Virus record (IMG/VR): IMGVR_UViG_3300037296_000164
Coordinates: 1-25,612 of that record
DNA length: 25,612 nucleotides
Strand: one strand, 5' to 3'
Source: a virus
Positions 4,326 through 23,198 of the stretch are shown here, piece by piece. The first letter of the stretch is position 1, and each line of letters starts with the position of its first letter. Under the pieces are notes generated by a model. It did not search any database, had not been told where the DNA came from, and was given only the letters and a program-made list of their open reading frames with translations. The translations under genes and the position numbers were made by a program.

Positions 4326-5278
4326 TGCAATTCAATAAAGCAGAAAGAAAGAAGTCACGCCTACGCCTCGCCCTTTGTGGCGTTAGCGGCTCAGGTAAAA
4401 CAATGAGCGCATTAATGGTTGCAAAAGGGCTGGGTGGCAAGACAGCTGTTATCGATACCGAAAATGGGTCTGCCAGTCTCTATTCGGACAGATTTGATTT
4501 TGATGTGCTTGAGCTTGAAGCACCCTACTCGCCTGAACGTTTTATCGAAGCTATTAACTTGGCTGAAAATGCGGGTTACGACAACGTTATTATTGACAGC
4601 ATGAGCCACGAATGGGTTGGTTCAGGCGGGTGCTTAGAGATTAACGACTTGTTAGGTAAGACAAAGTATAAAGGTAATAGCTTTGGTGCATGGGGTGAAA
4701 CAGGCTCGCGTCATATCAAGTTTCTTGAAAAAATCGTGACCAGTAAAATTCATATCATCGCAACTGTGCGTATGAAGAATGAGCATGTGCAGGATGGCAA
4801 GACCAAGAAGGTTCATAAGGTCGGCATAAAGTATGAAATGCGTGAGGACTTTGAGTACGAGTTCACTAGCGTTTTTAATATTGACCGTGATGGGCATTAC
4901 GCTATATCAAGCAAAGATCGCACAGGTATATTTTCTGACGAGCCTTTTATTATCACGCCAGCCACGGGGGAGCAGTTTGATAACTGGCTAAACAGCGGTA
5001 AAAACTACTATATGAGCGATGAAAATCTACGTGAGCTTGCGAGTATGTTGAGCCAGCTTAGTGATAACAACCAAGATCGCGTGCGTAAAAAGTACCCCAA
5101 CTTTGCTAACGAGCGTGATGACGATTTTGCGCGTATCAATCACGGCTTAGACGTTATGTTAGGCCAAGAAATAGCGGCTTTAGATGCTGCTAATAAAGCT
5201 AAGCAAGAGGCGGCTGACAATCGAACTGCTGATGAAAACGATCAACCAATGGCAGACAGCCAGACAGAAGGAGCTTGA
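4325..5278 (+). CDS. Sak4-like RecA-family ATPase (AAA_24), phage recombination
   Basis: This is a 317-residue P-loop ATPase. Walker A is GVSGSGKT (residues 19-26), Walker B is NVIID (87-91), followed by SMSHEW, and a basic segment lies near 149-175 (VRMKNEHVQDGKTKKVHKVG). This layout is that of phage Sak4-type, AAA_24 proteins: short RecA-like, single-strand annealing or strand-exchange proteins that often act with a phage exonuclease and SSB. A C-terminal helical extension (residues about 225-317) is acidic and Gln/Asp-rich. The start at 4325 overlaps the previous stop. A DEDDh exonuclease lies four genes downstream, which fits a recombination module. The family is confident; the role in this phage is inferred. 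Confidence 0.87.
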   Translation: MQFNKAERKKSRLRLALCGVSGSGKTMSALMVAKGLGGKTAVIDTENGSASLYSDRFDFDVLELEAPYSPERFIEAINLAENAGYDNVIIDSMSHEWVGSGGCLEINDLLGKTKYKGNSFGAWGETGSRHIKFLEKIVTSKIHIIATVRMKNEHVQDGKTKKVHKVGIKYEMREDFEYEFTSVFNIDRDGHYAISSKDRTGIFSDEPFIITPATGEQFDNWLNSGKNYYMSDENLRELASMLSQLSDNNQDRVRKKYPNFANERDDDFARINHGLDVMLGQEIAALDAANKAKQEAADNRTADENDQPMADSQTEGA

Positions 5279-5279
5279 T

Positions 5280-5543
5280 GTGACCAAAGATAATGACACG
5301 CCTATTCGATCTATCTTTGTCACTTTAAAGATGATTATAGATAGAGATACGCCCGTGAGTGTTGAAACATTGCGCAAGTCTACAGGATTTGGACAACGTA
5401 GAGTGCAGCGTCATGTTGAGCTGCTAACTGATATTGGCATGATTGAACGAACTGGCAAGTATGATTGCAATGGCTATCGCTATGCTAGCGCCCTACCTTT
5501 AGCTATTTGTCAAAAGAATACGTCCCTCGCGAGCGATTCCTAA
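5280..5543 (+). CDS. Small winged-helix DNA-binding protein
   Basis: I choose the GTG at 5280 because AGAAGGAG (5265-5272) sits 7 bases before it and the ATPase stop lies just upstream. The resulting protein has 87 residues. Residues about 10-70 form a winged helix: RSIFVTLKMIIDRDTPVSVE, then LRKSTGFGQRRVQRHVELLT and the wing IGMIERTGKYDCNGYRY. This resembles the small wHTH proteins near phage replication or recombination genes (helicase loaders, IclR-type HTH). It probably binds DNA, regulating the operon or assisting replication. The frame is open further upstream, but no better start is present. Confidence 0.72.
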   Translation: MTKDNDTPIRSIFVTLKMIIDRDTPVSVETLRKSTGFGQRRVQRHVELLTDIGMIERTGKYDCNGYRYASALPLAICQKNTSLASDS

Positions 5544-5748
5544 TTTAAATTCAACTAAGGGTAGCTAAAGCAATCTTAGTACCAATCAATCATCAATCGT
5601 TCAGGCAACTGGTATCAGCTAGTTGGTGAGGTGATGGCTCATAAAATGCGTGTCTGAGTTCAGGCGCACCAAGGCTATGACGCTGGGGTAACGTTAAAGT
5701 GGCGTTACCGCCTAAACACCCTATTTAACTTACTACGGAAGAATGATT
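5544..5748 (+). other. Intergenic region with hairpins, possible leader RNA
   Basis: This is a 205-base gap inside an otherwise packed operon. GGTAACG (5687-5693) pairs with CGTTACC (5703-5709), and TTGGTG (5623-5628) can pair with CACCAA (5667-5672). There is no T-run and no convincing promoter. A CTTACTACGGA ribosome motif (5729-5739) closes the region. It could be a structured leader, a small RNA or a remnant. No frame longer than a few codons with a ribosome site is visible. Confidence 0.4.
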
Positions 5749-6348
5749 ATGAAGCATTTTTTAAATTGTCACGTAAAGGGTGTTCACTCTCTATCTGTGG
5801 GCACTACTGAGGAAGGTAAATTAATACGGATGTTTGTGGCTGAAACACATCATACGCTTTGGCAAAACTCTATGACTAATTTCAGAAAGGGCGTGCAGTC
5901 ATTGGCTTTTCATAATCACAAATCAGATATTACTATTATTCCGTTAACTGGAATTGTAAGTAATATTTCGTTTCAGCCTAAAAATAATCATGAAGATAGC
6001 TTTGTATTCTCTGAGTTTATTTATCATTCAGCTATTGTCGATAGTGATGCAGGATATTTCAGTAAGACTGGCAGCGCATTTGTGATTGGCGTTCAGCGAC
6101 AAAGACTGGTGCAGCCTTTATTTTTAAAGGCTAATATTTTACATACAGTGCATGTGCCAAAAAACACTACTGCAAGCTGGCTGGTTATAGAGAGTGATGA
6201 TGCAGAAAGTGATGCTAATCACTTATCTTACTCGGTTTCTGATCTGTCTAGGTGGTCTTTAGATGGATTATATCAATTACCTACGGATCAGCAAGTAAAA
6301 GATTTGAAGAGTAAATATCTATTAGGAGCTAATCATGGCAAAAGCTAA
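5749..6348 (+). CDS. Hypothetical phage protein, possibly cupin-like
   Basis: The ATG at 5749 is preferred over 5743 because it is better spaced from the ACGGAAG ribosome site, giving 199 residues. The protein begins MKHFLNCHVKGVHSLSVGTT and shows many short strands: a GKLIRMFVAETHHTLW segment, a hydrophobic core (DITIIPLTGIVSNISF) and a late HTVHVPKNTTASWLVIES. These suggest a beta-rich, cupin-like or jelly-roll fold. Similar 'KGvHS..G' hypotheticals are known to me from other phages, with no established function. Codon use is somewhat more AT-rich than in the flanking genes, which may indicate separate acquisition. Confidence 0.8.
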   Translation: MKHFLNCHVKGVHSLSVGTTEEGKLIRMFVAETHHTLWQNSMTNFRKGVQSLAFHNHKSDITIIPLTGIVSNISFQPKNNHEDSFVFSEFIYHSAIVDSDAGYFSKTGSAFVIGVQRQRLVQPLFLKANILHTVHVPKNTTASWLVIESDDAESDANHLSYSVSDLSRWSLDGLYQLPTDQQVKDLKSKYLLGANHGKS

Positions 6349-6463
6349 GAATCGCGCCAGCCGCAAGAAGGCGCAAGTGAAAAAGGTGCCAATCATGGGG
6401 CTAGCAAAGCCTTTCGACTATGAATATTTATGGGATGAACTTACTAAAGGTGAAACAGCATGA
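6335..6463 (+). CDS. Small 42-residue basic protein
   Basis: This short frame overlaps the previous gene by 14 bases and the next by 4 (ATGA). TTAGGAGC lies 4-11 bases before the ATG. The N-terminal half is very basic (AKAKNRASRKKAQVKK) and the rest is acidic/aromatic (KPFDYEYLWDELTKGE). The coupling and clear ribosome site make translation likely. The basic head suggests RNA or DNA contact; nothing more can be said. Confidence 0.68.
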   Translation: MAKAKNRASRKKAQVKKVPIMGLAKPFDYEYLWDELTKGETA

Positions 6464-6888
6464 CAATTTTTCATATGAAGCAATCTATAGCAGGCTGCCT
6501 ACGCAACAACCCAGTTGGCACTATCGATTTTTCGGAAGACAGTGAAGGCAAGCCGCTATCTGACGCTGAAGCAAGAATTACATTAAATAAGCTGCTGTCT
6601 AAAGGTCACACCGTTATGCCAGTTGGCGACGACTGCGAAGGGTTTGATGTTTTTGGTGGCGGTTGTCCGGGTCATGAGCCGCTGACAGGAAGCGATTTGA
6701 CTCATGCAATGCTTAAACGTGGTGACAAAGCAATTATGTGTGGCGTAGGGGTTGGAAAATCTTTCTTTGTTGTTGTCACTGGTATTGAATTCGGAAAGTT
6801 TTTGACATCTACAGGTGCTTACTGGTTGAATCCAGTACCTATTAACAACCAAGGTGAACTATTAACAGCTAAGGAAGTCGGATTATGA
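6460..6888 (+). CDS. Hypothetical phage protein
   Basis: This is a 142-residue protein beginning MTIFHMKQSIAGCLRNNPVG, coupled at both ends by ATGA overlaps. The segment LSDAEARITLNKLLSKGHTV resembles the C-terminus of the 68-residue product at 2214. The second half contains a Gly/Cys-rich stretch (DVFGGGCPGHEPLTGSDLTH), then strand segments (KAIMCGVGVGKSFFVVVTGI). The GVGVGKS segment looks superficially like a P-loop, but it is not preceded by a nucleotide-binding strand pattern I trust. The function is unknown. Confidence 0.78.
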   Translation: MTIFHMKQSIAGCLRNNPVGTIDFSEDSEGKPLSDAEARITLNKLLSKGHTVMPVGDDCEGFDVFGGGCPGHEPLTGSDLTHAMLKRGDKAIMCGVGVGKSFFVVVTGIEFGKFLTSTGAYWLNPVPINNQGELLTAKEVGL

Positions 6889-7646
6889 ACACGCCAGCAA
6901 TGATTATAGATTTTGAAGCGACTGACGTTAGCAAGGAAGCTGAAGCGACACAGCTTGGGTGGCGTAACGTTCGGTTTGATAAACAAGGTTCCTTATGTGC
7001 AGACTTAGACCATCTGCCAAGTGCGCCTCGCAGTCTATCTATCCTTTGTACGCCTGATCGTACTATAAGCTATGGCGCTATGGCTGTAAGCCATATAACG
7101 ATGGATAACTTAAAAGGCACTTATAACCATAAAGACCTTATACCAACGCTACTACCAGTCGGTAAAGCCTACATCATCGGTCACAATGCAGACTACGACA
7201 TTCAAGTCGCTGCTAACGCTGGCGTCGATGTTAGCCAGTACAAAGCGATTTGCACACAAGCGCTGGCACGCGCAATGCTGCCGGACTTGGATAGTCACTC
7301 ACTAGGCGCACTCACCTACGCGATCAATCCTGAGCTGGCACGTCAGTATTGCCGCAATGCTCATGATGCGGGGTGGGATGTTACTTTCACACTTTGGCTG
7401 CTAGAGGAGATATGCGAGATTGGGTTTTTTACCAGCATGGAACAGCTGTATCTTGCCAGCGAAGAGGCGCGGATTCCTAAGATTATGCCGATTGGTAACG
7501 ATCATAAGGGAAAGTTGATTGCTGATATGGCGAAAGACACTAATGGTCGTGGCTTTCTACGCTGGGTGGTTAAGACTATCAAGGATAGACCTTACTTGGT
7601 GCAGGCTTGTGAGAAGGCGTTGGAGGTGAAAGGTGGGTGGTACTAA
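6885..7646 (+). CDS. DEDDh 3'-5' exonuclease (ExoX-like)
   Basis: This is a 253-residue exonuclease of the DnaQ/RNase T fold. ExoI is IIDFEATD (Asp9, Glu11). ExoII is IGHNADYD (Asp105). ExoIII is AHDAGWD (His160, Asp165), giving all four metal ligands and the catalytic His of the DEDDh group. The C-terminal extension (residues about 185-253) includes the EEARIPKIMPIGNDHKGK segment seen in exodeoxyribonuclease X-like phage proteins. It would degrade DNA from 3' ends, releasing nucleotide monophosphates. In this operon it probably works with the Sak4-like ATPase in recombination or processing of phage DNA. It overlaps both neighbours in frame order. Confidence 0.9.
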   Translation: MNTPAMIIDFEATDVSKEAEATQLGWRNVRFDKQGSLCADLDHLPSAPRSLSILCTPDRTISYGAMAVSHITMDNLKGTYNHKDLIPTLLPVGKAYIIGHNADYDIQVAANAGVDVSQYKAICTQALARAMLPDLDSHSLGALTYAINPELARQYCRNAHDAGWDVTFTLWLLEEICEIGFFTSMEQLYLASEEARIPKIMPIGNDHKGKLIADMAKDTNGRGFLRWVVKTIKDRPYLVQACEKALEVKGGWY

Positions 7647-8397
7647 TACCGTTATAGGGCAGCTACCCGAATTTATAGACGCCAGCAAGCTTGATTGCGA
7701 ATATTCGTGTACCGCACTAGATAAGATGCTAAAGATTAATGGCTCACGAGTAACTAGTTTTATAAATAAAAGAGCTAACAATAATGAGCCGATAGATCAC
7801 AAACAGTTGCCACACTATTCACAACGTGGCTTTAAGAGGGTTTATAGGTTGAGAGACGTATTGGCAGCTGCCTTAAATAGTGGTGGTAATTTGCAACCAA
7901 CCGATGAAAAGCAAAAAGATGATTTTGTGAAAAATCTGAGCTGGCAAGAAAGAAATTTAGCAAAAGAGGTTGCTAATCTAGAGGCTAAAAAGAAGGGATT
8001 ACTGAAAGAGATTGATTTTCTTTCTGGCAACCTTTCGGATATCAGCCCTGTATTGAGTCAAACAAATTTTTCACTGGTTCCTATTAATGAGATTGTCAGG
8101 AAGTCCAGTAGCTACGGCAATGTATGTGGCGTTTATTTTCTAATTAAGAACAGTGAAATTGTTTATATAGGCCAAAGTATAAATATAGCGGCACGTATTA
8201 CATCACATAAAGATAAGGACTTTGACAGCGTTAGCTATGTTACTTGCAAGCGATCAGAGCTGGATATATTAGAGTCTCTATACATTATAGCTTATAACCC
8301 TGTCCTGAATGGCGAGGTTAAGGCTGGCGGAGGCGTTACCACAAGAGCTTGCACGCCTATATCATTAGATAATATTGTGAGAATGTTCTCAGGTTAA
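7633..8397 (+). CDS. GIY-YIG nuclease-domain protein with coiled coil
   Basis: This is a 254-residue protein from GTG 7633, chosen because GGAGG (7622-7626) lies 6 bases upstream; it overlaps the exonuclease gene by 14. The N-terminal 1-85 is a possible DNA-binding region (RVTSFINKRANNN, RGFKRVYRLRDVLAAAL). Residues about 100-135 form a coiled coil. Residues 163-230 form a GIY-YIG domain: GVY (166-168), YIG (178-180), Arg188 and Glu214 in LDILESLYI, with YNPVLN after it. All core catalytic positions are present. Such proteins may be phage DNA nucleases or homing-like endonucleases. Fixed membership in the operon argues against a free-standing homing gene. Target and role are unknown. Confidence 0.84.
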   Translation: MGGTNTVIGQLPEFIDASKLDCEYSCTALDKMLKINGSRVTSFINKRANNNEPIDHKQLPHYSQRGFKRVYRLRDVLAAALNSGGNLQPTDEKQKDDFVKNLSWQERNLAKEVANLEAKKKGLLKEIDFLSGNLSDISPVLSQTNFSLVPINEIVRKSSSYGNVCGVYFLIKNSEIVYIGQSINIAARITSHKDKDFDSVSYVTCKRSELDILESLYIIAYNPVLNGEVKAGGGVTTRACTPISLDNIVRMFSG

Positions 8398-10748: not shown

Positions 10749-11624
10749 TTATAAATACCGCAAGCATTTTTCTAATGTCTCGCAAAAATCCTCATAGCCA
10801 TTAAAGCCACCGTTAACAGTATTACGAATGATGCGAGCACCATAATTCATTTTATAGTCTTTCGTTTCAACACCTTTTGATGTAAGCGTATTTAAGGTAT
10901 AGCCGTCAGAATAAACATTAATCTTTTCAGCTTTTTCATTGCAGCCATTCAGTTGCCAGAAGGCCATAGCAGCGCGTACTGAATTGTCTAGATCTTCAAT
11001 TAACTTAGGGTTATCACCAAACTTGATATCTGTCATGTTTTGCAAGATAAAGTAATTATCTCTAAATGTGTTCATGATCAGGCCGCCACCTCGATAATCC
11101 CAACCGTCATTTGTGTTTGCTCTATTGCCGTATCGACGACCATATAAGTAGTTAGCTGTAGCAACTTGGCCTTTTGCAAGTAGCGCCTGAGCTTGTGCGA
11201 TAGTTGGTACGCGAGACTTAAATACCGCAACAAGACGGCTTGCTGAATAAGCAAAGCTCTCACGCTTAGCATTAAATCCGCTTGACTCAACAATACAAGT
11301 GGCAATAAACGAGCACATCTGTTTGTGGGTGATAATGCCGTACTGTGGCGCGTATTTTAGAATAATAGGGATAGCATCAGGATTAACATTGGGGTAGATT
11401 TTTTTAAGATTATCCAGCGTTAGATCATACAACCTGCCAGCGGTTGAGCTTGGCGTCTCCACCGTTACTCCTAGTCGCTCAATAATCGTATTGCGGAAGG
11501 CGTCATCAGTCATCGCCTTATTGGTAATATCAACAAGCAGCTGTGATAGCTTGGCAGGCTCTAAGTGCTTGCGTAGCGCCTGAAATATATCATCGTCAGC
11601 GACACTAGATTGCATCTTGTTCAT
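10749..11624 (-). CDS. GH19 chitinase-type endolysin
   Basis: This is a 291-residue lysozyme of glycoside hydrolase family 19. I choose the ATG at 11624 (MNKMQSSVAD) because AGAGGTGGAA precedes it; the frame is open further upstream but that would overlap the membrane-protein gene by 88 bases. Residues about 60-291 carry the fold. The catalytic Glu113 lies in TCIVESSGF (normally AHESGGF) and the second Glu122 in RESFAYS; the family segments YGRRYGNRA and GWDYRGGGLI follow. The His that usually precedes the first Glu is Val here. It cuts peptidoglycan glycan strands at the end of infection. No signal peptide is visible, so it needs a holin. A 60-residue helical N-terminal extension is of unknown role. 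Confidence 0.9.
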   Translation of the reverse strand: MNKMQSSVADDDIFQALRKHLEPAKLSQLLVDITNKAMTDDAFRNTIIERLGVTVETPSSTAGRLYDLTLDNLKKIYPNVNPDAIPIILKYAPQYGIITHKQMCSFIATCIVESSGFNAKRESFAYSASRLVAVFKSRVPTIAQAQALLAKGQVATANYLYGRRYGNRANTNDGWDYRGGGLIMNTFRDNYFILQNMTDIKFGDNPKLIEDLDNSVRAAMAFWQLNGCNEKAEKINVYSDGYTLNTLTSKGVETKDYKMNYGARIIRNTVNGGFNGYEDFCETLEKCLRYL

Positions 11625-11919
11625 CGTCTTCCACCTCTTCAGTTTCTTTTGTCTCGCGTTTTTTAAGTAGTGGCATACAGCACCACAAGCCAATTAATAT
11701 CAGCAATCTTGCCACTACCGTTAAGCTGGTAGGCTGCAAATTCTGCACTGTGTCCGCAAAAAATAGCAGCACCCACACTGCACCTAGCGCCATTATTCCT
11801 ACTTGAATACGCATATCGTGGCCGGTCTTATATTTACTGAACCACCATACCCATACCCATCCAGCGCCACCAATAACAGCAAGAATCGTACTTAAAAAAT
11901 CTAAATTGAAGACGATCAT
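11605..11919 (-). CDS. Small 3-TM membrane protein, holin candidate
   Basis: This is a 104-residue protein with three hydrophobic segments (about 9-27, 39-56 and 65-84) and a charged tail (KKRETKETEEVEDDEQDAI). This is the profile of a class I holin, although I do not recognise a named family. It lies immediately upstream of the endolysin, overlapping its start by 20 bases. GGGAGGA precedes the ATG, which overlaps the previous stop (ATGA). Holin or antiholin is the best reading. The neighbouring 188-residue membrane protein is the rival candidate. Confidence 0.75.
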   Translation of the reverse strand: MIVFNLDFLSTILAVIGGAGWVWVWWFSKYKTGHDMRIQVGIMALGAVWVLLFFADTVQNLQPTSLTVVARLLILIGLWCCMPLLKKRETKETEEVEDDEQDAI

Positions 11920-12482
11920 TTATCATTCCTCCCGACAAACGCCATCAAGATACCTTTAAGGTAACCAAAGACAGCCTTTATCATTTCAGGCGCAGAGCTA
12001 TGGGCCTCTGTATTGATAAGCGCCCACAGTTTTTCACCCGTAAAGAAAGCAATCACGTAATAAATAACCACTGAGCCGATAGCAGCGCAAAACCCAGCCG
12101 GAACAATAAGGCTCCAGATAGTAATGTCTGGGTAAAAAATTGGCACAACGAATAAGGTGATTAATATACCGAACGACAAGCTATAAAACGGCTTTAGATA
12201 AGAGCGTTTAAATTTATCGTCGATAGGCGTTGGTTGATTCATTCCCATGATGGTGCCAAAGATAAGCGCAATCACAAAGAACACCACACCAAGCCAGTTA
12301 GGTACGGTAAAGCCGACCAGTAAATAAGGGTCAGCTAATTGAAATAGGTACACATTGTTTGTTGGCACGACCTCAACAACCGACGGGGCGGTGATATCTG
12401 CGGCAGATAATGCGGCGGCTTTGGTGGCAACATAACCGCCTACTGCGATAATGCCATTGCCGAAGGCTGCTCTAATGGTCAT
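11916..12482 (-). CDS. Multi-TM protein, putative holin or lysis membrane protein
   Basis: The ATG at 12482 is preferred (AAAGGAC spaced 7 bases), giving 188 residues beginning MTIRAAFGNGIIAVGGYVAT. Hydrophobic segments lie at about 64-82, 99-117 and 123-147, with a further weak one near 8-20. A basic loop (DDKFKRSYLK) separates the first two main segments. The C-terminus (MIKAVFGYLKGILMAFVGRN) is amphipathic. It resembles the larger phage 'holin/structural' membrane proteins found next to GH19 endolysins. Two membrane proteins in tandem before an endolysin suggest a holin/antiholin pair. No spanin (Rz/Rz1) pair is seen in the cassette. Confidence 0.72.
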   Translation of the reverse strand: MTIRAAFGNGIIAVGGYVATKAAALSAADITAPSVVEVVPTNNVYLFQLADPYLLVGFTVPNWLGVVFFVIALIFGTIMGMNQPTPIDDKFKRSYLKPFYSLSFGILITLFVVPIFYPDITIWSLIVPAGFCAAIGSVVIYYVIAFFTGEKLWALINTEAHSSAPEMIKAVFGYLKGILMAFVGRNDK

Positions 12483-12507: not shown

Positions 12508-13164
12508 TTAAGCGAGGCACCAGTCGGTTGCGAGTGCGTCTGACACACTGGGTGACCATGTTGCTACGTCACCTTGCGCGGTTTTGAGTGCGAGATATTC
12601 ACGGTATGGCACCATATCGTTTTCAAACTCACCGCCCATCGTTTCTAGGTTGTTGCGCTCTACTGGGTAACTTGCGGCTGGCACGTAATAAACATACATG
12701 CCCTTGCCGTTCCAGCCAGCACGAGCGACTTTTTTGCCCATCTTTAGCAAGTAGACAGCTGAGCCAAAATCAAACTCATCACCTTCTTCAATAGGACAGT
12801 CGCCACCTACTTGCACAAACTCACAGCAATCACATAACGAGCCACCACTCGCCAGCGTAGCAACTTCATCTTCGGTCAATTCGTGGTCGGGATCGGAAGG
12901 TGCTGTGCATAACTTATTGGCCAAAAGATAACCTTCAAGCTCCCATAGTTTTTTAATGGCATTCTCAAGCGCATATGTCTCACCAAGTTCCTTGTTAAAG
13001 TTTTTCGCATCAACACAAGAAGCCTCACCAGTCACCTTAAACTTACTTGGCAGAGTAATAACCGCTACCGTTAGCTTTTTGCCGAATACTGCATACTCAA
13101 TCTTACTTTTAGCAACCAATTCATCTAACTGCTCTTTGGTCACTGTGTTTTTTACGTCTGTCAT
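12508..13164 (-). CDS. Gp49-family protein fused to a Tad2 (DUF2829) domain
   Basis: This is a 218-residue two-domain protein. Residues about 7-85 match the phage Gp49/66 family pattern (YAVFGKKLTVAVITLPSKFK ... ASCVDAKNFNKELGETYALE ... KLWELEGYLL). A Cys-rich linker (CDCCEFVQVGGDC, 111-123) follows. Residues about 130-217 are a DUF2829 domain: FGSAVYLLKMGKKVARAGWN, GKGMYVYYV, YLALKTAQGD and WSPSVSDALATDW. DUF2829 includes Tad2, a phage protein that binds the cyclic ADP-ribose signal made by Thoeris defence and so blocks it. The domain call is confident. Whether this copy sequesters a Thoeris signal is inferred from family. It lies in the late/lysis transcript, where Gp49-like genes are common, and has AGGATTAAT before its ATG. 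Confidence 0.85.
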   Translation of the reverse strand: MTDVKNTVTKEQLDELVAKSKIEYAVFGKKLTVAVITLPSKFKVTGEASCVDAKNFNKELGETYALENAIKKLWELEGYLLANKLCTAPSDPDHELTEDEVATLASGGSLCDCCEFVQVGGDCPIEEGDEFDFGSAVYLLKMGKKVARAGWNGKGMYVYYVPAASYPVERNNLETMGGEFENDMVPYREYLALKTAQGDVATWSPSVSDALATDWCLA

Positions 13165-13194: not shown

Positions 13195-13488
13195 TTAGCG
13201 TTTGATGTATTCGTTTTTGCCAACATGCTCGTAAGTCTTTTCAAACACATCTGCCTTTACTGGATAAAACTCCCCATTAGCGCCCTTAACAACGTAATCA
13301 CCTATGCTGGCTTGCATGGCACCGCTAGAGTTATCGATAGTCATTTTAGGGTTTTCGCGGTCTTCATAGCTAATCTTCAGCCAGTCGGTTTTTCCACTTA
13401 TGAACTTAGAAAACTCTATTAATCGGGCTGGCTCATCGGTGAATACCAGTGCTTTAATAATGGTTGGCTTCTTACGAGACTTAGGCAT
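13195..13488 (-). CDS. Conserved hypothetical phage protein
   Basis: The ATG at 13488 (MPKSRKKPTI) has AAGGAC 6 bases upstream; sequence before it in the frame belongs to a neighbouring gene. The 97-residue product ends with GDYVVKGANGEFYPVKADVF and EKTYEHVG. That ending is a widespread phage motif ('GD.ivkG.nGE.yp.kpdiF..tYe') found beside Gp49/DUF2829 genes in lysis regions. The function is not established. It is beta-rich and probably binds something small or another protein. Confidence 0.82.
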   Translation of the reverse strand: MPKSRKKPTIIKALVFTDEPARLIEFSKFISGKTDWLKISYEDRENPKMTIDNSSGAMQASIGDYVVKGANGEFYPVKADVFEKTYEHVGKNEYIKR

Positions 13489-14183: not shown

Positions 14184-17100
14184 CTACATGCCGTCACGCA
14201 CACCGTTCAACTCTTGCGCCAATGTACCACGACCTGTCTTGGGTGCTCGCTTGATTACTCGATCCACCTTATCCATCTTCATCTCGCGCACACGTCTTGC
14301 GATATCGGTTGGCTTAATGATGATCTTTTGATTAGGGTTTTTGTTATTCCAGTCTTTGACAGCGGATCTCGCATCAGAAACCTTACTGCTATTACCCTCG
14401 ACCACGCCAGCCGCCCAAAGCGCTCTGATACTTGAGGCACGCAGATTATAGTAAGAGGTTGATGACTGCCCAAGATAGTTAGCCTCTTGTATCTTAGAGA
14501 TATCGCGTGGCTGGAAGCCAAAGAACTTAAATGCAGCATCAACTGGTGTGACATCAGCGACCTTATAGCCTTTGGTGTCTTTATAGATACCAGACGTTGC
14601 CATGCCAGTACCTTTCACAGCGTTTCTTACTGCGGTAGGGGCAAACTCTAATGCGCCTTTTTTAAGGCTGGTACTATCAAGATTGGCAACACCTTTAGCA
14701 ATATCTCTTGTGCCGGTAGCAACACGCCCCACAAAGTCACCAGCAGGACCAACTATCTCGAGTACATCACGCGAATTACTCGTGCGCTCTTTAAAGATAC
14801 CTGTGCCCGGTATTAGATTGCCAAGACCTAAGCGACCTGATACATCGGTTGGCGAGCCTGATACGCTCGAGATACCGCCATCAATAAAGTCTCCCATCAT
14901 TTCTCCCATCCATTCATCTAAGAACGCTTGGCGTACCTTTTTGGATGAGAAGTTATAGCCCATGATCTGCCCGATGCCATCTACCAAGTCTTCAGCATCT
15001 TCCATAAATGGCAAACCGCCAGCACCGCCCAGTAAGAACAACGTACCAATCATAATACCGACCGCCTTACGTCCAGCTGCACGCTCAGTCGATCCTTTCT
15101 CGCCCTGCGTCCATAATCTGTGCATCAGCTCCATGTATGAGACGGTGTAAGTCTTAAAGGTCATAAGCGTGCCACCAACAGCGCCGCGCCCCCAATTCAT
15201 GCGACTGGCTTTGTTGTAAACAAACTGCGTCTCTTTGATTGAGTTGGTCGCAAACTCTGCTGGATTGTCCATGCCTTGCTCTTTTGCCATGCGGTAAGCT
15301 GCCACAAATGTCACACGGCGGTTGACCTGTTCTGCCAAACTAAACAATGAACCCCATGCCAGACTGACACGTGACAGCGAGTTACCTGCCAGCGCTTTCG
15401 CGTTGCCAAGTTTGGTGCCATCGCCTGCGCGTAGTGGGTTTTTACCACTCGCCATCTTCATAAGGTTATGAACCTCTTGCGGTGACAGCGTGCCATCCGC
15501 CTCTGCACGTTCAATCGCATCTCGTAAGTCTGCTTCAAAGTGATCGTTGTTCTTATTCCTCAGCGACTTACCCCAATCGGTTGATGACTTGCTAAGCTGT
15601 GCCGCTGCTTTGACTGCACCACCAAACTGAGATAGGTATGGGAATGATACCGCGATAGGCTGTGTTAAGTTGACCACGGCTGAGGCGACAGAACCACCTA
15701 AGTATTGCGCAAACATCCAGCCACGGATAACCTGCCCCTCCTCTTGTGGGTTTTTAATGTACTGCGCCAATTTAACGGCTGCATCTTTTAACTGCCCTTC
15801 ACCTTTTGGTATGTCTGCAATACTACGATCAAGGTTGCCCATGTTAAGTGCGGCAGAGGTATGACGTGCATTAGAGTAGATGAACGAGGCAAGTACGCGC
15901 CCAACGTCCTCACTGTACCCTTTGATACCTTTACGGTGCATTAGGCGCTTCATGGCGCTACGGTTGTTCTTGGTGCGTTTTAGATACTCTTGGAATGCCT
16001 CGTCAGCGGCTTTGTCACCAGTAGCATCAAGCCCTAGCATTTCCCCAAACAATTCAGCCGTTTCCGGCGTCACGCCAGCGAATAATTTAAACTCTTCTTT
16101 AGACAAAGCGCCACGACTGACGGTATGAGTTACTGGGTCGTCGTACAGCGCTTTCATATCCTCTTCCATCTTACGAGCGTCATAAGCGGATTCAAACATG
16201 CCGAAGTATTCACGATTGCCATCGCTATCTACCACGTCAACCGTGTATTGACCAAAGCGTGACAGCGGTGCATAGCCATCGTCTTTGAGTTTATTGGTGC
16301 GGAACTGCGACTCTTTGATATCTTTCAACATACCTTTGAGCGCTTTTTCTTTTTTCGGGCTGGCTTGTATGAGTCCGTTGATATGCTGCTCGATAGTAAA
16401 GACCGCCTCGCGTAACGTGCCAGCCTCCATGACTGCCGCTTCGATATCGTTGGCATCTTTACCCAAGCGACGCAGCATGTCTGAGCGCGTCAAGCTGTCA
16501 AGGCTCTTATCGGTAGCTGCGCGGAACTCACGATACAATCCAATTTGCTCATCGTTCAAGTCAAACTTAGAACTCAGCTCGTTATCCGTCCAGACAAGGC
16601 CAGCGTTCACTTCTTCATCGATAATGCCATTGATAAAGCGGTTGGCTTGAATGTTATTTAGCGTGGCAAGCTCTTGCAACTGCGCTGGCGTGATTCTCCC
16701 TACATCTTGTAACATCTTCAATCTATCTTGCTTTGAAGCTGACATGGTTTTTTTACGCCAGTCTTCAATAAGTACCGCCTTGCCATCAAGGTCGCGGCCC
16801 CATAGCAATGTACCCTCAAAGATAGGTTTGCTTAGCGCCTCATTGTCCTTGGCACCGATAGCAGACTTTGTGATATCACGTAGCGAGTCAAGCTGTGGCA
16901 ACAATCTAGGCGCAAACTCACTGGCTTTTGAGGCGTAGTAAGATACGTCGTTGATAAACTTCTCAGTGTTTTCAAACACTGGCTTAAAGTAAGGGTTACG
17001 CTGTGCCAAGTTATACATCGTACCTAGTGTTTTGTGCCACCAAGAAAGCTTGCCTGGTGGGTTAGATGATGCCCAGTCGTAAAGGCGTGTCATGGATTCA

Positions 17101-20100
17101 CGAGCGATATTGCGTGGATCAAACTGATCGTCCATGCCAGCGGCGCGGCTAAACCTGATGTCAGGATTTTTCGGATCACTAAACTGTGGCATGGCGCTCA
17201 TGGAATCAAACGCTGAATTTTGTTTTTCAACCTCATTTACCATGCGCTCAGCGAGTGATAAAATATCTTGCGAGTTAATCTTGATCGACGCGCCTAGCAT
17301 ATTGCGCAAAAACGAACGAACCGCCATGACCATACGATTAATCATGCCAGCAATCTTGCCCTGCCTTGCCTGCTGGCGTGACGCGAGTGTTAGCAGGTAA
17401 GGCAGATATTCGTCTAACGCCTCTTGCTTACTACGTGCAACCTTGTCAGCGATAGCTTTTGCTTGCACAGCCAATGGGTCGCCCGCTGCTACGAGCGCAT
17501 CAAAGTCTTTCATTAGTGCGTTGTAAGTTTTTTTATCCATCAGCGACTGCATACCGCCATGACCACCAAGCTCATGCAGGAAGGTTGGGATTATCATTTC
17601 GTCAGATAAGTTGTCCGCAATCAAAGTCGCCTTGCCATTTAGGTATAAGCCATCGACATCACTAGGGATAGTGAGTCTGCCGTTTCGCACAAAATCAGAC
17701 AGCACCTTGATATCAAGCTTGCCGTCAGTCATGAGCTTACTGATAGTTTCTTTGCCAAATTTATCGCTCAACTTGGCAATGACTTGCTGGCGAGTGGTGT
17801 TGGTTGAGCCTATCGCATTGGCCTTTATATTCCCAATCGTTTGACTCATCTGTCCTGCGCGGCTAAACAAAGTCTTGCCGTTACCGTCTTCTGACGCCCT
17901 GCTATCAATGGTGGCAAACAGATTATCAAACGCTTCAGCAACCGGTGCCATCTCGCTTTCTAGCAAATATGGGTATCTGTCCATATTGCGAGGGAAAGCA
18001 TCCTCTGGTGTGACATTGGCTAAGAAGTCGCTACGAGCACCTTGCTTGTCTAACTTGTTAATGATATAGCTTTCAAAAGCACGCGCTGCACGCTCAATAA
18101 TGCGTGACCAATAACCGTCAACGGCGCCTTTATCGATGGTCATAGCACGAGATTTCATTGGAGATTCGTCTAACGCCTTGACCAGATCAGCAAACACCTC
18201 TTCAACTTTTGGTCGAACGCCCTCTTTATGGTTAGGATCAGGCATAAAGTTTTCAGGTAGATAAGCGTGGTTCTGATTCATGTCGTAAATTTGCTTGCGA
18301 CGCGCGTCAGTCATCGGACGCATACGACTAGGTTTACCGTTCTGATCTTTCATTATCAGCATAGGTTCAGGCTTATAGGTAATATAAGCGCTCTCCTTAC
18401 TGGTCATTCTGTTGGGGTCGTCACGGAACGAGGTGAAGTGATTGTCTAGCGCATGGAACCATTCGTGTGCAAGCGAGCCTGCACCTTTGGTTTTGGTTAG
18501 ATTGATAATCACTTGTGACGGCTCGTAGTGTGCCATAGCAGCGCCCTTACCACGGGCACCGAACGACATACCAAGCTTGCCGCCTAGACCGATTGCTTCA
18601 GATGGAATACCTAGCACGCCAGCCAAGTCCATAAAGGCGTCATAAGTATCGTTTAACATGCTCTGACGAGTGGTTGCATCTTTAGCGTTTTGCGTAACCC
18701 AGTTACCAAACTGACCACCACGCAAGCCGAACGCTTCCATGAATTGCTCAGTCGTTACATCCAAGCCACCACGATGATCGAGGCCTATGCGGTCGCGTGT
18801 TACCTTTGAGCGAATGTCGGATTTTTTGACGTTTACTTTTTCTTTGTGCTGATCCCACAGCTCAGATAGGTCGTTATTGTTGTCTTTTAAGAAAGCTCTA
18901 GCAGTATCTCTATCATTAAACTCAATCAGTGGCGTCTTATCTTTGTCGCTGGCTTGTGTGATAAACCATGATTTACTATCACCACGACCACGACTGTATA
19001 AATCAAACTTCAATGCTGGCGCTTTGGTTTCACCCTCCAGTAACTCGTTTACCTGCTCAGCAAGCTCGGACATTTCTCTAGTTTTCGTTTTAAGGATATG
19101 CACTTTCTTATCTATCGTAACCACAAAACCCATGAAAGGCGTGCGAGTTCCGTCCTCTTCTTTCTGCGTAGAGCCGATACGAGGATCAACCATAGTGATA
19201 CGTGACCACTGATTCCTATCTACCTCGTTAAGCAACTTTGCATGATAAGCGTAACCACGCATGGTCTCGCTTGCCATCAATCCATCCATAATCTTATTGA
19301 ATGGAATGGAGTCGCCAAGCATGGCTTGCATAACACCGCGAAAAGTTTTTACGGTATTAACCCAGTTTCTTAGCTTATAGCCTTTTCTTGGCTTGGTAGG
19401 TATAGCAACACGAAATACAGTGGCAAGTGCTGCCTGCTGCTTATCTTCAATCGATTCAACGTCTTTCTTAGGCCATATCTTGCTAAGCGGCTCATTGATA
19501 ATATCGTCGTCGCTTATCTCTTTTTGATGAAACGAGTCCATATCTTTACGAGCACCAGTTATCTTTTCGCCAAAGTCTTCAATCTCTGCGACTGGCTCAG
19601 TGGTCGCGGCCGGCTTGTCTGATTTTTTAGGTACAGGTTTTTTGGCTTCTGGTGCTGTTTCCGATTTTACTACAGAAGACTGAGGCGGTTTTGTTGGGCT
19701 AGCAGCGACAGTTTCTGATTGTTCTACATTCGATTGAGGTTCGCTTTGACTTTCTTGCGCCTCCATACGCTCACGCACCCGACCTTCCATCGCATCAAAT
19801 TGAGCGTCAGTAATATCATATTCACCATCTTCATTGGTGGTGATACCCATCTCGTCAGCGACTTCGGTTTGGAATTGCGCGTAGCTTTTTGGTGGATTGC
19901 TCTGCTCTACTTGCGCGCTTCCTACTTCATTAGATTCAACGGTCTTGGTGCTCGTTAGTTCTTTGAGACCTTTATCAACCAAAGCAACAACGCTCTTTTG
20001 TGTTTGCGCGTTACTATACTGCTGTTCTGTCAGCGCACCTCTTGCAACAAGCTCTTTGGCTATCCCTTTGGTTAACGTTGGCGTGTCTTGCCACTCTTTG

Positions 20101-23100
20101 TTGCCGCTGATAGCGTCAGACAACTCTTGCTCTGACGGCACTCTTGCATTTTCCTCAACTGTCTTGTTTGCGGCAGCTTTGACGTTAAGTGTTTGTCTAG
20201 GCGCTGGAATATTAACCGTAGGATTGTCATTGGTCAGCTGTGTGGATTCGGTGATCTGCTTGTCCACACCTACTAAGCTAGCTTCGTAGTTATCATTTAA
20301 TAATGGTTGAGCTTCGGAGGTTTGACCGTCACTCAATACGTTTGGCGTATCTTCGATATCATCAAACGATAGACCGCCTTGTTTTGGATTTCCCTTACCA
20401 GTGACCGCATTGATGCGTTGTTGGATATTCTCACCGATTGCTTTGGCTGAACGCCTGTTGTCTGATAACACGCTTAGTATCTCTTTGGCACCATCAGTTA
20501 GACCGTCATCCAATAAACTATCTTGCGATAGATAGTCGCTGACTTCTTTATCGCTATTCTTGATGTCCATGTAGGCTTGTGTGGCATCAGCGATATCACG
20601 TGCCAGCGTATTGTTAAAAGCGACGCCTGATTTTGCATCACTATTTAACTGGCTGATCTGTGGTGCCTTATCAGTGATTGCGCGTAGTACATTGGTGGTA
20701 TCGTTATCGAGCTTTTCTGATATGGCTGATACCAGCTTGGGATTGCTGTAAGCGTCCTGCACGATAGCCGCTTCAATACGGTTTTTGCCTTCACGCGATA
20801 AACCATCACTTTCATCCATCATGGCAGACTGCTCAGTGCTTGGTAGTCCTGACACAAAGTTTTTAAGGTACGATTGGCTTTGGTACAAGCTCATATTGCC
20901 GTCACCATTGAACGATAGTAGGCTGGCATCGGGCAGATTCTTAGCGTCACTTGCTGCTTGCTCTGTGCTACTCATACGTGCGGCAGTCGGCTTGTTCGCT
21001 GCTCGTGCAAACTCGTCACGGTTCATGTCTGAGGTGTTGCGACGTACCAATACTGGTGACTGCATCATGTTCACAGCGTCAGTATCAAGTCCGAACTTAC
21101 TTGCCTGCTCATTGACGAACTGGCGGTACTCTTGTGCCTTTGCACCATTCTCTTGATAGACTTTACGGATAGCCATACTTCGGCCATTACCTGAGTCAAC
21201 CACGTTGTCAGTAGCACCTACAAACGGTGCGCCTGTCGATACGTCTGGGCTTTCACCCAAGATATTTGGCTGTAGCTTACTGGCAATCTCATTGACTTGT
21301 TGTTGGGCGCTGGCACGTGTGCGGTCACGTGGCTGGCGAGACGCTGGGAAGTTAGGGTTAATGGTAAAGTTGTCAGTGTTACTGGTCACAAGGTCGCTAG
21401 CATCGACCACATCCCACTGCGCTTTCACTTCGTTACCTTCAGGCGTGTAGGCACGAGTTTGAGCGCGAGCTTCATCGAGGACGCGAGTATTCGGCTTGAT
21501 CTGTTTAATATCGGCATCAATTTTTGGTATGTCGTTAGCTTCGCGCATAAGGCGCGCTTTTTCTGATAGCGATGTCGGTTCGTTCTGTACGGCCTGTGCA
21601 AGTCTTGCATAGGTACTGTTATTTTGGTCTGCACCATCTAGCCTATCCATCATGCCAGATTGCCATGTGCTCATGGGTTGCTCGGCATTCACATCGCGCA
21701 TCTGATTACCGACTTCACTGGCACCGCTATCAACGGCCAATACTGCCGCTGCGGATAGACTGCCCTTATTGGCGTCAAGCCCCATTAGCTCAGACGGTTT
21801 TGGCGCTTCGGGTACTGGCGTTCTATCTACTATCTCGCCGCGAGCGCGACGCGCACGCTCATCGATACGTGCCTGCTGCTCGTTCTGTAGAGAAGTATTT
21901 ACATCGGCACCCGTTTGTACCGTACCATCAGGGGTAACGGTAAAGTCATTTGGTGCTGGCAAGCGTGGGTCATTACCGTACTGATCATAACCTTGTGGCG
22001 CTTGCGTTACATCATCAAAGTTTCTAGGCTGTGGTTGATTGGCATCACGCTCAGTACGCGCACGCTCTTGTTGCTGTGCCAGATACTCGTTGTACTGATC
22101 GCCTGTAAATACCTCGCCATCGGGACCTGCATTAAATTGATTGGTTGCTCGACCTTGGAACCCTAGTTGTAGTGCTGCTTGGTTACCAAGTAGTCCGGCT
22201 GGGCTGAAACTAGGGTCTAGCGGATTGGTTGAGCCATATCCTACATCCTCTTGCCCCATGTCTTCGGTTGGGGTGATTCTTTCATCTGGTCTGCGATTGC
22301 GAGCAAACGCGCCAGCACCAGCGCCCATCGCGGCACCTGAGAGCAAACCAAGTGCGGCTGCGTCAGTTACACCTTCATCAAGCGGACGACCTAGCGCCTC
22401 GTTTTGCAGGATAGTTTCAGATACCGATTGCGGTAGCTCTTCAAGCAAGCCTTCACTGAGCGCCCCTTCTGCACCGCGTCTCAAGATACCTTTGTCTTTA
22501 GAGGCATTAGCAGCAGCGCTACCTGCAATGCTAGCAGCTGGATTGGCAGTACGGCCACCACCAGCAATAATGGTGTCAAAGTCACCGATACCAAGCTCTT
22601 TGGCTAAGCGACCACCAGCATAACCAAAGCCTGCGGTAGTCGCGCCTGTTGCAGCGGCGATTCCTGCTTGCTTAGGCGTTAGTAATCCATCTTCGGTTTG
22701 TTGACGGATAGATTCGGCTTGCAAGCCTGCACCTAACGCACCCTCACCTAACGCACCAGCCACCACCCCAGAAACTTTTGGGGCAATCATACCAAGACCA
22801 CGACCAACCGCACCACCAGCAAACATAGAAGGTAGGGATTCAGCTACCGTATTAACGATCAGCGATGGGTTTTTTCTAGCGTAGTTAAGTTTTCCTCCAA
22901 AACCCTCGGTATTAGTAAAGTCTTGCAGCTGCTCTTTGCTTTTCTCGGTTTTGAAGCCGCCAATAAATTCATGTGTGGCTTTTGGGTCATACCCTGCTTT
23001 ATCTTCTAGGAATTTACCAGCGCGACCAAGCGTAGGTATGTTAGCTAGACCAACGGCAGCTTCACCAACACCAACCACACCATCAGCGAGAAGCGATAGC

Positions 23101-23198
23101 GCGGCATCTTTTACATAACCACCAGCGCCCTTATCTTTAGTGGTAGCGCCCTTTAGAAACAACTCACGCTGTTGTTGCTTGACATCTAGTTCTTTCAT
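14184..23198 (-). CDS. Giant polyvalent virion protein (DdrB-ParB, LPD1, PLxRFG, LPD38)
   Basis: This is one uninterrupted frame of 3004 codons. Recognisable parts, with approximate positions, are as follows. 30-320 is Gly/Ala-rich and membrane-active-looking. 590-950 is DdrB-ParB-like (SGNGR at 669-673). 1140-1200 is a Pro/Lys/Ser linker. 1470-1590 is LPD1 with a zincin site HEWFH (1578-1582; LGGKLGMSFGARGKG before it). 1790-1960 is a second protease-like region with HELGGH (1875-1880). PLSRFG is at 2311-2316. 2430-2740 is LPD38 with hydrophobic segments. The tail is basic (KMDKVDRVIKRAPKTGRG). Such 'large polyvalent proteins' of podovirus-like phages are thought to be packaged and ejected with the DNA, forming the genome-entry channel and delivering protective enzymes. 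The domain calls are from pattern memory; protease activity and the ejection role are inferred. Confidence 0.88.
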   Translation of the reverse strand: MKELDVKQQQRELFLKGATTKDKGAGGYVKDAALSLLADGVVGVGEAAVGLANIPTLGRAGKFLEDKAGYDPKATHEFIGGFKTEKSKEQLQDFTNTEGFGGKLNYARKNPSLIVNTVAESLPSMFAGGAVGRGLGMIAPKVSGVVAGALGEGALGAGLQAESIRQQTEDGLLTPKQAGIAAATGATTAGFGYAGGRLAKELGIGDFDTIIAGGGRTANPAASIAGSAAANASKDKGILRRGAEGALSEGLLEELPQSVSETILQNEALGRPLDEGVTDAAALGLLSGAAMGAGAGAFARNRRPDERITPTEDMGQEDVGYGSTNPLDPSFSPAGLLGNQAALQLGFQGRATNQFNAGPDGEVFTGDQYNEYLAQQQERARTERDANQPQPRNFDDVTQAPQGYDQYGNDPRLPAPNDFTVTPDGTVQTGADVNTSLQNEQQARIDERARRARGEIVDRTPVPEAPKPSELMGLDANKGSLSAAAVLAVDSGASEVGNQMRDVNAEQPMSTWQSGMMDRLDGADQNNSTYARLAQAVQNEPTSLSEKARLMREANDIPKIDADIKQIKPNTRVLDEARAQTRAYTPEGNEVKAQWDVVDASDLVTSNTDNFTINPNFPASRQPRDRTRASAQQQVNEIASKLQPNILGESPDVSTGAPFVGATDNVVDSGNGRSMAIRKVYQENGAKAQEYRQFVNEQASKFGLDTDAVNMMQSPVLVRRNTSDMNRDEFARAANKPTAARMSSTEQAASDAKNLPDASLLSFNGDGNMSLYQSQSYLKNFVSGLPSTEQSAMMDESDGLSREGKNRIEAAIVQDAYSNPKLVSAISEKLDNDTTNVLRAITDKAPQISQLNSDAKSGVAFNNTLARDIADATQAYMDIKNSDKEVSDYLSQDSLLDDGLTDGAKEILSVLSDNRRSAKAIGENIQQRINAVTGKGNPKQGGLSFDDIEDTPNVLSDGQTSEAQPLLNDNYEASLVGVDKQITESTQLTNDNPTVNIPAPRQTLNVKAAANKTVEENARVPSEQELSDAISGNKEWQDTPTLTKGIAKELVARGALTEQQYSNAQTQKSVVALVDKGLKELTSTKTVESNEVGSAQVEQSNPPKSYAQFQTEVADEMGITTNEDGEYDITDAQFDAMEGRVRERMEAQESQSEPQSNVEQSETVAASPTKPPQSSVVKSETAPEAKKPVPKKSDKPAATTEPVAEIEDFGEKITGARKDMDSFHQKEISDDDIINEPLSKIWPKKDVESIEDKQQAALATVFRVAIPTKPRKGYKLRNWVNTVKTFRGVMQAMLGDSIPFNKIMDGLMASETMRGYAYHAKLLNEVDRNQWSRITMVDPRIGSTQKEEDGTRTPFMGFVVTIDKKVHILKTKTREMSELAEQVNELLEGETKAPALKFDLYSRGRGDSKSWFITQASDKDKTPLIEFNDRDTARAFLKDNNNDLSELWDQHKEKVNVKKSDIRSKVTRDRIGLDHRGGLDVTTEQFMEAFGLRGGQFGNWVTQNAKDATTRQSMLNDTYDAFMDLAGVLGIPSEAIGLGGKLGMSFGARGKGAAMAHYEPSQVIINLTKTKGAGSLAHEWFHALDNHFTSFRDDPNRMTSKESAYITYKPEPMLIMKDQNGKPSRMRPMTDARRKQIYDMNQNHAYLPENFMPDPNHKEGVRPKVEEVFADLVKALDESPMKSRAMTIDKGAVDGYWSRIIERAARAFESYIINKLDKQGARSDFLANVTPEDAFPRNMDRYPYLLESEMAPVAEAFDNLFATIDSRASEDGNGKTLFSRAGQMSQTIGNIKANAIGSTNTTRQQVIAKLSDKFGKETISKLMTDGKLDIKVLSDFVRNGRLTIPSDVDGLYLNGKATLIADNLSDEMIIPTFLHELGGHGGMQSLMDKKTYNALMKDFDALVAAGDPLAVQAKAIADKVARSKQEALDEYLPYLLTLASRQQARQGKIAGMINRMVMAVRSFLRNMLGASIKINSQDILSLAERMVNEVEKQNSAFDSMSAMPQFSDPKNPDIRFSRAAGMDDQFDPRNIARESMTRLYDWASSNPPGKLSWWHKTLGTMYNLAQRNPYFKPVFENTEKFINDVSYYASKASEFAPRLLPQLDSLRDITKSAIGAKDNEALSKPIFEGTLLWGRDLDGKAVLIEDWRKKTMSASKQDRLKMLQDVGRITPAQLQELATLNNIQANRFINGIIDEEVNAGLVWTDNELSSKFDLNDEQIGLYREFRAATDKSLDSLTRSDMLRRLGKDANDIEAAVMEAGTLREAVFTIEQHINGLIQASPKKEKALKGMLKDIKESQFRTNKLKDDGYAPLSRFGQYTVDVVDSDGNREYFGMFESAYDARKMEEDMKALYDDPVTHTVSRGALSKEEFKLFAGVTPETAELFGEMLGLDATGDKAADEAFQEYLKRTKNNRSAMKRLMHRKGIKGYSEDVGRVLASFIYSNARHTSAALNMGNLDRSIADIPKGEGQLKDAAVKLAQYIKNPQEEGQVIRGWMFAQYLGGSVASAVVNLTQPIAVSFPYLSQFGGAVKAAAQLSKSSTDWGKSLRNKNNDHFEADLRDAIERAEADGTLSPQEVHNLMKMASGKNPLRAGDGTKLGNAKALAGNSLSRVSLAWGSLFSLAEQVNRRVTFVAAYRMAKEQGMDNPAEFATNSIKETQFVYNKASRMNWGRGAVGGTLMTFKTYTVSYMELMHRLWTQGEKGSTERAAGRKAVGIMIGTLFLLGGAGGLPFMEDAEDLVDGIGQIMGYNFSSKKVRQAFLDEWMGEMMGDFIDGGISSVSGSPTDVSGRLGLGNLIPGTGIFKERTSNSRDVLEIVGPAGDFVGRVATGTRDIAKGVANLDSTSLKKGALEFAPTAVRNAVKGTGMATSGIYKDTKGYKVADVTPVDAAFKFFGFQPRDISKIQEANYLGQSSTSYYNLRASSIRALWAAGVVEGNSSKVSDARSAVKDWNNKNPNQKIIIKPTDIARRVREMKMDKVDRVIKRAPKTGRGTLAQELNGVRDGM

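Follow-up and report, generated by a model that had tools for sequence, protein, structure and literature searches.

The window analyzed here (the whole stretch of 25,612 nucleotides of IMG/VR virus record IMGVR_UViG_3300037296_000164) contains an open reading frame (ORF) in which a Gp49-type domain precedes a Tad2-type domain, and the question it raises is what a phage protein built in this way might do. The Gp49 family is that of Acb4. Acb4 and Tad2 have been known as sponges that share no structural relationship and occur as separate proteins; if their fusion recurs and its halves can be swapped, phages would pack counter-defense against two signaling systems in one protein.

One reading frame joins an Acb4-family and a Tad2-family domain

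The initial annotation had placed a Tad2-family domain and a Gp49 domain on a single ORF, and Pfam recovered both of them there above the gathering cut-offs (27 bits for PF13876 and 25 bits for PF11195; Table 1). The frame contains no internal stop, and the ribosome-binding site AGAAAGGA lies just 5' of its ATG. The Tad2 motifs that had been quoted were found in the C-terminal half (RAGWNGKGM at residues 148 to 156, LKTAQG at 192 to 197, and WSPSVSDALATDW at 203 to 215), and the linker does carry the Cys residues that had been described; that they bind zinc is only a guess. Outside the Psychrobacter set, the Cys-containing linker showed no relatives except for a weak match in locus L138.

An AlphaFold2 model computed from an alignment of 49 sequences, taken from the window and the fetched loci, gave pLDDT values of ∼97 for the N-terminal domain and of 82 to 97 (block values) for the C-terminal domain. 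Confidence was low in the linker (pLDDT of <50 at residues 86 to 88 and 108 to 121), with the exception of a helix at residues 98 to 107, and the pTM was 0.49, with the geometry between the domains left undefined by the model. Single-sequence folding of the N-terminal domain was poor (pLDDT of 51) and was set aside. In a Foldseek search of the PDB, the C-terminal domain led to Tad2 structures and the N-terminal domain to the Acb4 structure 9e4w, and all matches with an E value of <0.001 were Tad2 or Acb4 structures. Because the pLDDT is high and the significant PDB fold matches all belong to these two families, a chance origin of the ORF is excluded. No model matching the fusion protein was found in PADLOC or NCBIfam.

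The gene is part of a tight run on one strand that comprises, in order, a phrog_419-type gene, the fusion, two three-transmembrane (three-TM) proteins, and an endolysin, so that its earlier placement in a lysis cassette was fair. For the three-TM protein directly downstream of the fusion, no family match was found among Pfam and PHROG profiles. The position of the fusion gene in a late operon ahead of the lysis genes suggests that it is expressed late. This Psychrobacter phage is temperate, since integrase and S24-type repressor genes are present (Pfam), and the nearest syntenic locus is found in Psychrobacter sp. 4Bb (L081). An ORF of 3,004 amino acids on the minus strand (14184 to 23198), which ends just upstream of the fusion cassette, probably encodes a virion protein, judging from its size and position; L081 encodes a syntenic homolog of its C-terminal part. 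Elsewhere, an ORF on the plus strand (7633 to 8397) has a weak C-terminal match to the phage endonuclease family phrog_1111 and adjoins a DNA polymerase exonuclease-subunit-type gene at 6885 to 7646.

Table 1. Features of the fusion gene and its cassette in the window
Feature	Position	Strand	Details
acb4-tad2 fusion gene	12508..13164	-	218 aa; single open frame, ATG and ribosome-binding site, both Pfam domains above cut-off
N-terminal Gp49_66/Acb4 domain	12913..13143	-	residues 8-84; PF13876 (Phage_gp49_66), 71.1 bits
Linker	12772..12912	-	residues 85-131, 47 residues; Cys 86, 111, 113, 114, and 123
C-terminal Tad2-like domain, predicted ModTad2 class	12514..12771	-	residues 132-217; PF11195, 80.2 bits
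Small gene, phrog_419 type	13195..13488	-	30 bp upstream of fusion; RKKPxxI...GDYVVKGxxGEFYPxKxDxFExTYE
Three-TM protein, putative holin-type	11916..12482	-	hydropathy and ribosome-binding site; start 25 bp past fusion stop
Three-TM protein, putative second holin or lysis membrane protein	11605..11919	-	hydropathy
Endolysin	10749..11624	-	phrog_181, E 3.7e-43

Predicted ligands of the two halves

The description of the Gp49 domain as one of unknown function has to be replaced. PF13876 has been defined as the Acb4 family, in which tetramers act as sponges for CBASS cyclic dinucleotides; all eight Acb4 homologs tested bound 3'3'-cGAMP, and cAA was also bound by homologs from phages of Gram-negative hosts (PMC11722364). 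The SPO1-type Acb4 itself matches PF13876 (35.5 bits). When the N-terminal half was searched against the PDB with phmmer, it matched Acb4 9e4w (E value of 5e-4), and a profile of 24 of its relatives, from which SPO1 Acb4 had been left out, had 9e4w as its only significant PDB match (7e-10). Foldseek matched the model to the same structure (E value of 2.6e-5, probability of 1.00, TM score of 0.65 to 0.74 by target length), the only significant fold match besides Tad2. This family assignment, from which ligand binding is predicted, fits the earlier suggestion of a second signal-binding anti-defense domain in the Gp49 half.

Acb4 of Bacillus phage SPO1 (gp1.3, 9e4w) is a stand-alone protein, whereas the window domain, with 27% identity to it, is joined to Tad2. 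Of the ten SPO1 pocket residues (PMC11722364), four are identical in the window protein (K36=K30, F48=F42, F62=F56, and N63=N57), one is replaced conservatively (I66 by L60), and the remaining half are changed (E49 to K43, V56 to C50, Y57 to V51, T70 to Y64, and K81 to E75). These losses could mean that the Tad2 half alone is an active sponge and that the Acb4/Gp49 half has drifted to a scaffold or to another ligand, e.g., RNA, to which the dsRBD-like topology of Acb4 (PMC11722364) and weak Foldseek matches to dsRNA-processing complexes would also point. We consider such a drift unlikely, as most natural members of the family likewise differ from SPO1 at the changed positions and yet 8/8 of those tested bound 3'3'-cGAMP. 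Moreover, the N-terminal half looks constrained, with 89% protein identity to the fusion protein of locus L137 at 80% DNA identity, and the recurrent Acb4-Tad2 pairing (see below) argues for a related role.

For the Tad2 half, phmmer placed ModTad2 of Myroides odoratus (9eib/8v3e) first (1.4e-24) by a wide margin (90 versus 48 bits), with HgmTad2/AcrIIA7, SPO1 Tad2, and SptTad2 well behind. Foldseek likewise ranked the ModTad2-hisADPR complex 9eib first (1.9e-10, ∼51% identity), and the top 24 matches to the model were all Tad2/AcrIIA7 structures. The ligand-side loop and following helix of Tad2 were located from PMC12043709, and in the alignments the loop region reads WSPSVSD in the window protein, WTPSVSD in ModTad2, WVPSQTD in SPO1 Tad2, and WLASQTD in HgmTad2. 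ModTad2 and the window domain thus share the Tad2 fold, an identical PSVSD in this loop, and a KTxxxDxATW block; ModTad2 is a stand-alone protein of 88 amino acids, whereas the window domain makes up the C-terminal part of a fusion protein and carries an insert four residues longer. The Tad2 half appears to belong to the ModTad2 class, an assignment that rests on ∼50% identity and one loop.

MoTad2 binds His-ADPR, the signal of type II Thoeris, which is linear and not cyclic, and blocks this system, and SPO1 Tad2 binds gcADPR (PMC13299392). Because the sequence, the fold, and the WxPSVSD loop are nearest to ModTad2, the predicted ligand of the window domain is of the ADPR type and not cyclic, most likely His-ADPR; in this way, a Tad2 ligand class is predicted from a short loop. 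The initial annotation's Tad2 assignment stands, but the signal that it named is cyclic, and the nearest relative of the window domain, ModTad2, takes linear His-ADPR as its ligand (9eib; PMC13299392). Tad2 relatives bind several ligands (gcADPR, cGG, and His-ADPR), and the broad range of the family (PMC12043709), together with the solving of HgmTad2/AcrIIA7 and SptTad2 with cADPR isomers and cGG, would be in keeping with binding of another signal by the window domain (gcADPR or a cyclic dinucleotide), or with inhibition of type II CRISPR, as AcrIIA7 was named. We rate this as improbable, much like a drifted Acb4 half: ModTad2 comes first by a wide margin in both sequence and fold, the loop motif is that of ModTad2, and the long insertion of HgmTad2 that is tied to dinucleotide binding is not present at that length in the window protein (alignments).

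According to published work on the Acb4 and Tad2 families, each domain type is a tetramer that binds immune signals. We infer from this the oligomers, ligands, and anti-defense effect of the fusion protein, which in our judgment probably combines, in a single chain, two sponge domains that form tetramers, one for CBASS dinucleotides and one for an ADPR-type Thoeris signal. The N-terminal domain would assemble as an Acb4-type tetramer that takes up CBASS cyclic dinucleotides, and the C-terminal domain, of the ModTad2 class, as a Tad2-type tetramer that captures an ADP-ribose signal, with the His-ADPR of type II Thoeris as the most likely one; the flexible linker would allow both tetramers to assemble from one chain. 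One late gene would then block two abortive-infection signals at equal dose, which would let the phage escape both CBASS and type II Thoeris. The fusion also lends itself to testing whether sequestration is improved by a covalent link between the domains.

Recurrence of the fusion and exchange of its halves

Altogether, 16 distinct fusion sequences were recovered (∼14 without near-copies), from Psychrobacter types, a Moraxella metagenome-assembled genome, Pasteurella phage Pm86 and a relative, Bacillus, Neobacillus, and uncultivated or environmental phages. Every fusion scanned exceeded the cut-off for both PF13876 and PF11195, and one of them (L224) recurred in another genome from the Psychrobacter genus set. 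For an unbiased count, two Tad2-only queries yielded 160 loci; an Acb4-family domain lay within 5 kb of Tad2 in 44 of them (fused to it in 10, immediately next to it on the same strand in 31, and elsewhere in 3), a count whose independence is overstated because the contigs are partly redundant. Among the 34 unfused Acb4 neighbors, 31 were located within 300 bp of Tad2 on the same strand, compared to 3.2 expected under random placement, and none of 200,000 simulations of such placement reached 31. The phages with adjacent genes are diverse (N4-like, Bacillus, and others). In N4 gp48-gp49 and similar pairs, the Acb4-family and Tad2-family genes overlap in one operon as two proteins, and the Tad2 partner often has an N-terminal domain, termed SWSPK here, that is absent from the window fusion.

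The fused state corresponds to 9 changes on the Acb4 tree (at least 5 on supported branches) and to 6 changes on the Tad2 tree (at least 4 on supported branches), both built from few alignment columns and with gains and losses not distinguishable. As judged from these trees, the fusions appear to have arisen or been lost several times. The fusion was not found described in the open-access literature, in which papers naming Acb4 and Tad2 together exist; since both families are already known and adjacent pairs are common, it is the fused and shuffled architecture that is new. P1-type phage-plasmid "DUF2829" proteins, to which the window protein was matched over 96 to 98% of the length, seemed to be Escherichia coli Acb4 fusions and were rejected: in the one that was scanned (L406), Pfam gives Tad2 only, and its N terminus is without Gp49 and by eye resembles the SWSPK segment.

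In the Psychrobacter sp. 4Bb prophage L081, acb4 (5111 to 5608) and tad2 (5605 to 6414) are separate genes with a 4-bp overlap, at the same cassette position ahead of the same lysis genes as in the window. Its Tad2 half and linker are 91% identical to the window protein; the genes differ from the window in being unfused and in carrying additional domains, crAss001_48 on Acb4 and SWSPK on Tad2. In this unfused tad2 gene, the linker segment of the window separates the SWSPK domain from Tad2; in the window, the C-terminal LLANKL of the Acb4 domain is followed directly by the linker start (CTAPSDPDHELTEDE), with the SWSPK domain dropped. The same segment is present in the fusions L219 and L222, which have nearly the same linker and different flanks on both sides. 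At the DNA level, the identity of the window to L081 is 61% for the Acb4 half and 90% for the Tad2 half, and that to fusion L137 is 80% and 68%, respectively; the Tad2 half of L137 is 89% identical to that of L222. The Acb4 half of the window is closest to that of a fusion carrying the other Tad2 class, and both Tad2 loop classes occur behind similar Acb4 halves. L137 and L222 are of the WLASQTD class, for which a Thoeris signal other than that of the window protein would be predicted, together with an unchanged CBASS signal. The DNA identities that differ by half and the linker pattern of L219 and L222 therefore indicate that halves have been exchanged between phages. Under the two-sponge reading, acb4 would have been joined to the neighboring tad2 gene inside the linker of the latter, and the halves would have been swapped between phages thereafter.

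The join could instead be incidental, i.e., a deletion connected two cotranscribed anti-defense genes with no functional gain, and it would be lost again. The separate genes of the near-neighbor L081 would agree with this, as would the trees, which do not distinguish fusion from fission in every case. We hold an incidental join to be doubtful, though less so than the two alternatives raised above for the individual halves, since fusions recur in phages of Proteobacteria and Bacillota with the same domain order and differing linkers, and the fusion frames remain open while the halves are swapped.

Partner domains and targets in the host genus

The Acb4-Tad2 pairing points to uncharacterized partner domains that are possibly further anti-defense proteins. 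The SWSPK domain (GTKxIxAxPMTRxxYNxxRGW...GYLVEYxDG...GYISWSPKxVFExAY; e.g., L005, 6192 to 6686; L054, 6243 to 6725; and L081, 5605 to 6414) has no Pfam match; it lies N-terminal to Tad2 in 133 Tad2 ORFs, and 4 other ORFs join it to Gp49/Acb4 (redundant counts). It may be regarded as another candidate signal-binding or anti-defense domain. Proteins of the phrog_419 type (RKKPVVIEA...; 25 further letters not shown) are fused to Tad2 in L188 (3608 to 4258) and L184 (3797 to 4387), and phrog_4159 links this type to nucleotide pyrophosphohydrolases. By eye, the phrog_419-type protein seemed homologous to the SWSPK domain, but hhalign did not support this (probability of 1.3%), nor did it support a link of either of them to Acb4 or Tad2. 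The unfused Psychrobacter Acb4 of L081 has a C-terminal crAss001_48 domain (PF21825, 66 bits), which is a small phage domain. It is possible, and we propose it tentatively, that phages fuse and swap a modular set of sponges (Acb4, two Tad2 ligand classes, and perhaps SWSPK, phrog_419-type, and crAss001_48 domains) to match the immune signals of their hosts; the window protein would then be one two-signal combination, and the uncharacterized partners would be further nucleotide-signal sponges.

Matches to the presumptive targets were counted in 105 genomes of the genus of Psychrobacter sp. 4Bb. Irrespective of operon completeness, ThsB-type TIR matches were present in 13 of these genomes and SMODS (CD-NTase) matches over the cut-off in 14. 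In one genome, the gene for a ThsA protein (TM and macro; L393, 1276 to 2118) overlaps that for ThsB (TIR; 2108 to 2674) in a complete-looking type II Thoeris operon, and this genome also has an SMODS match.
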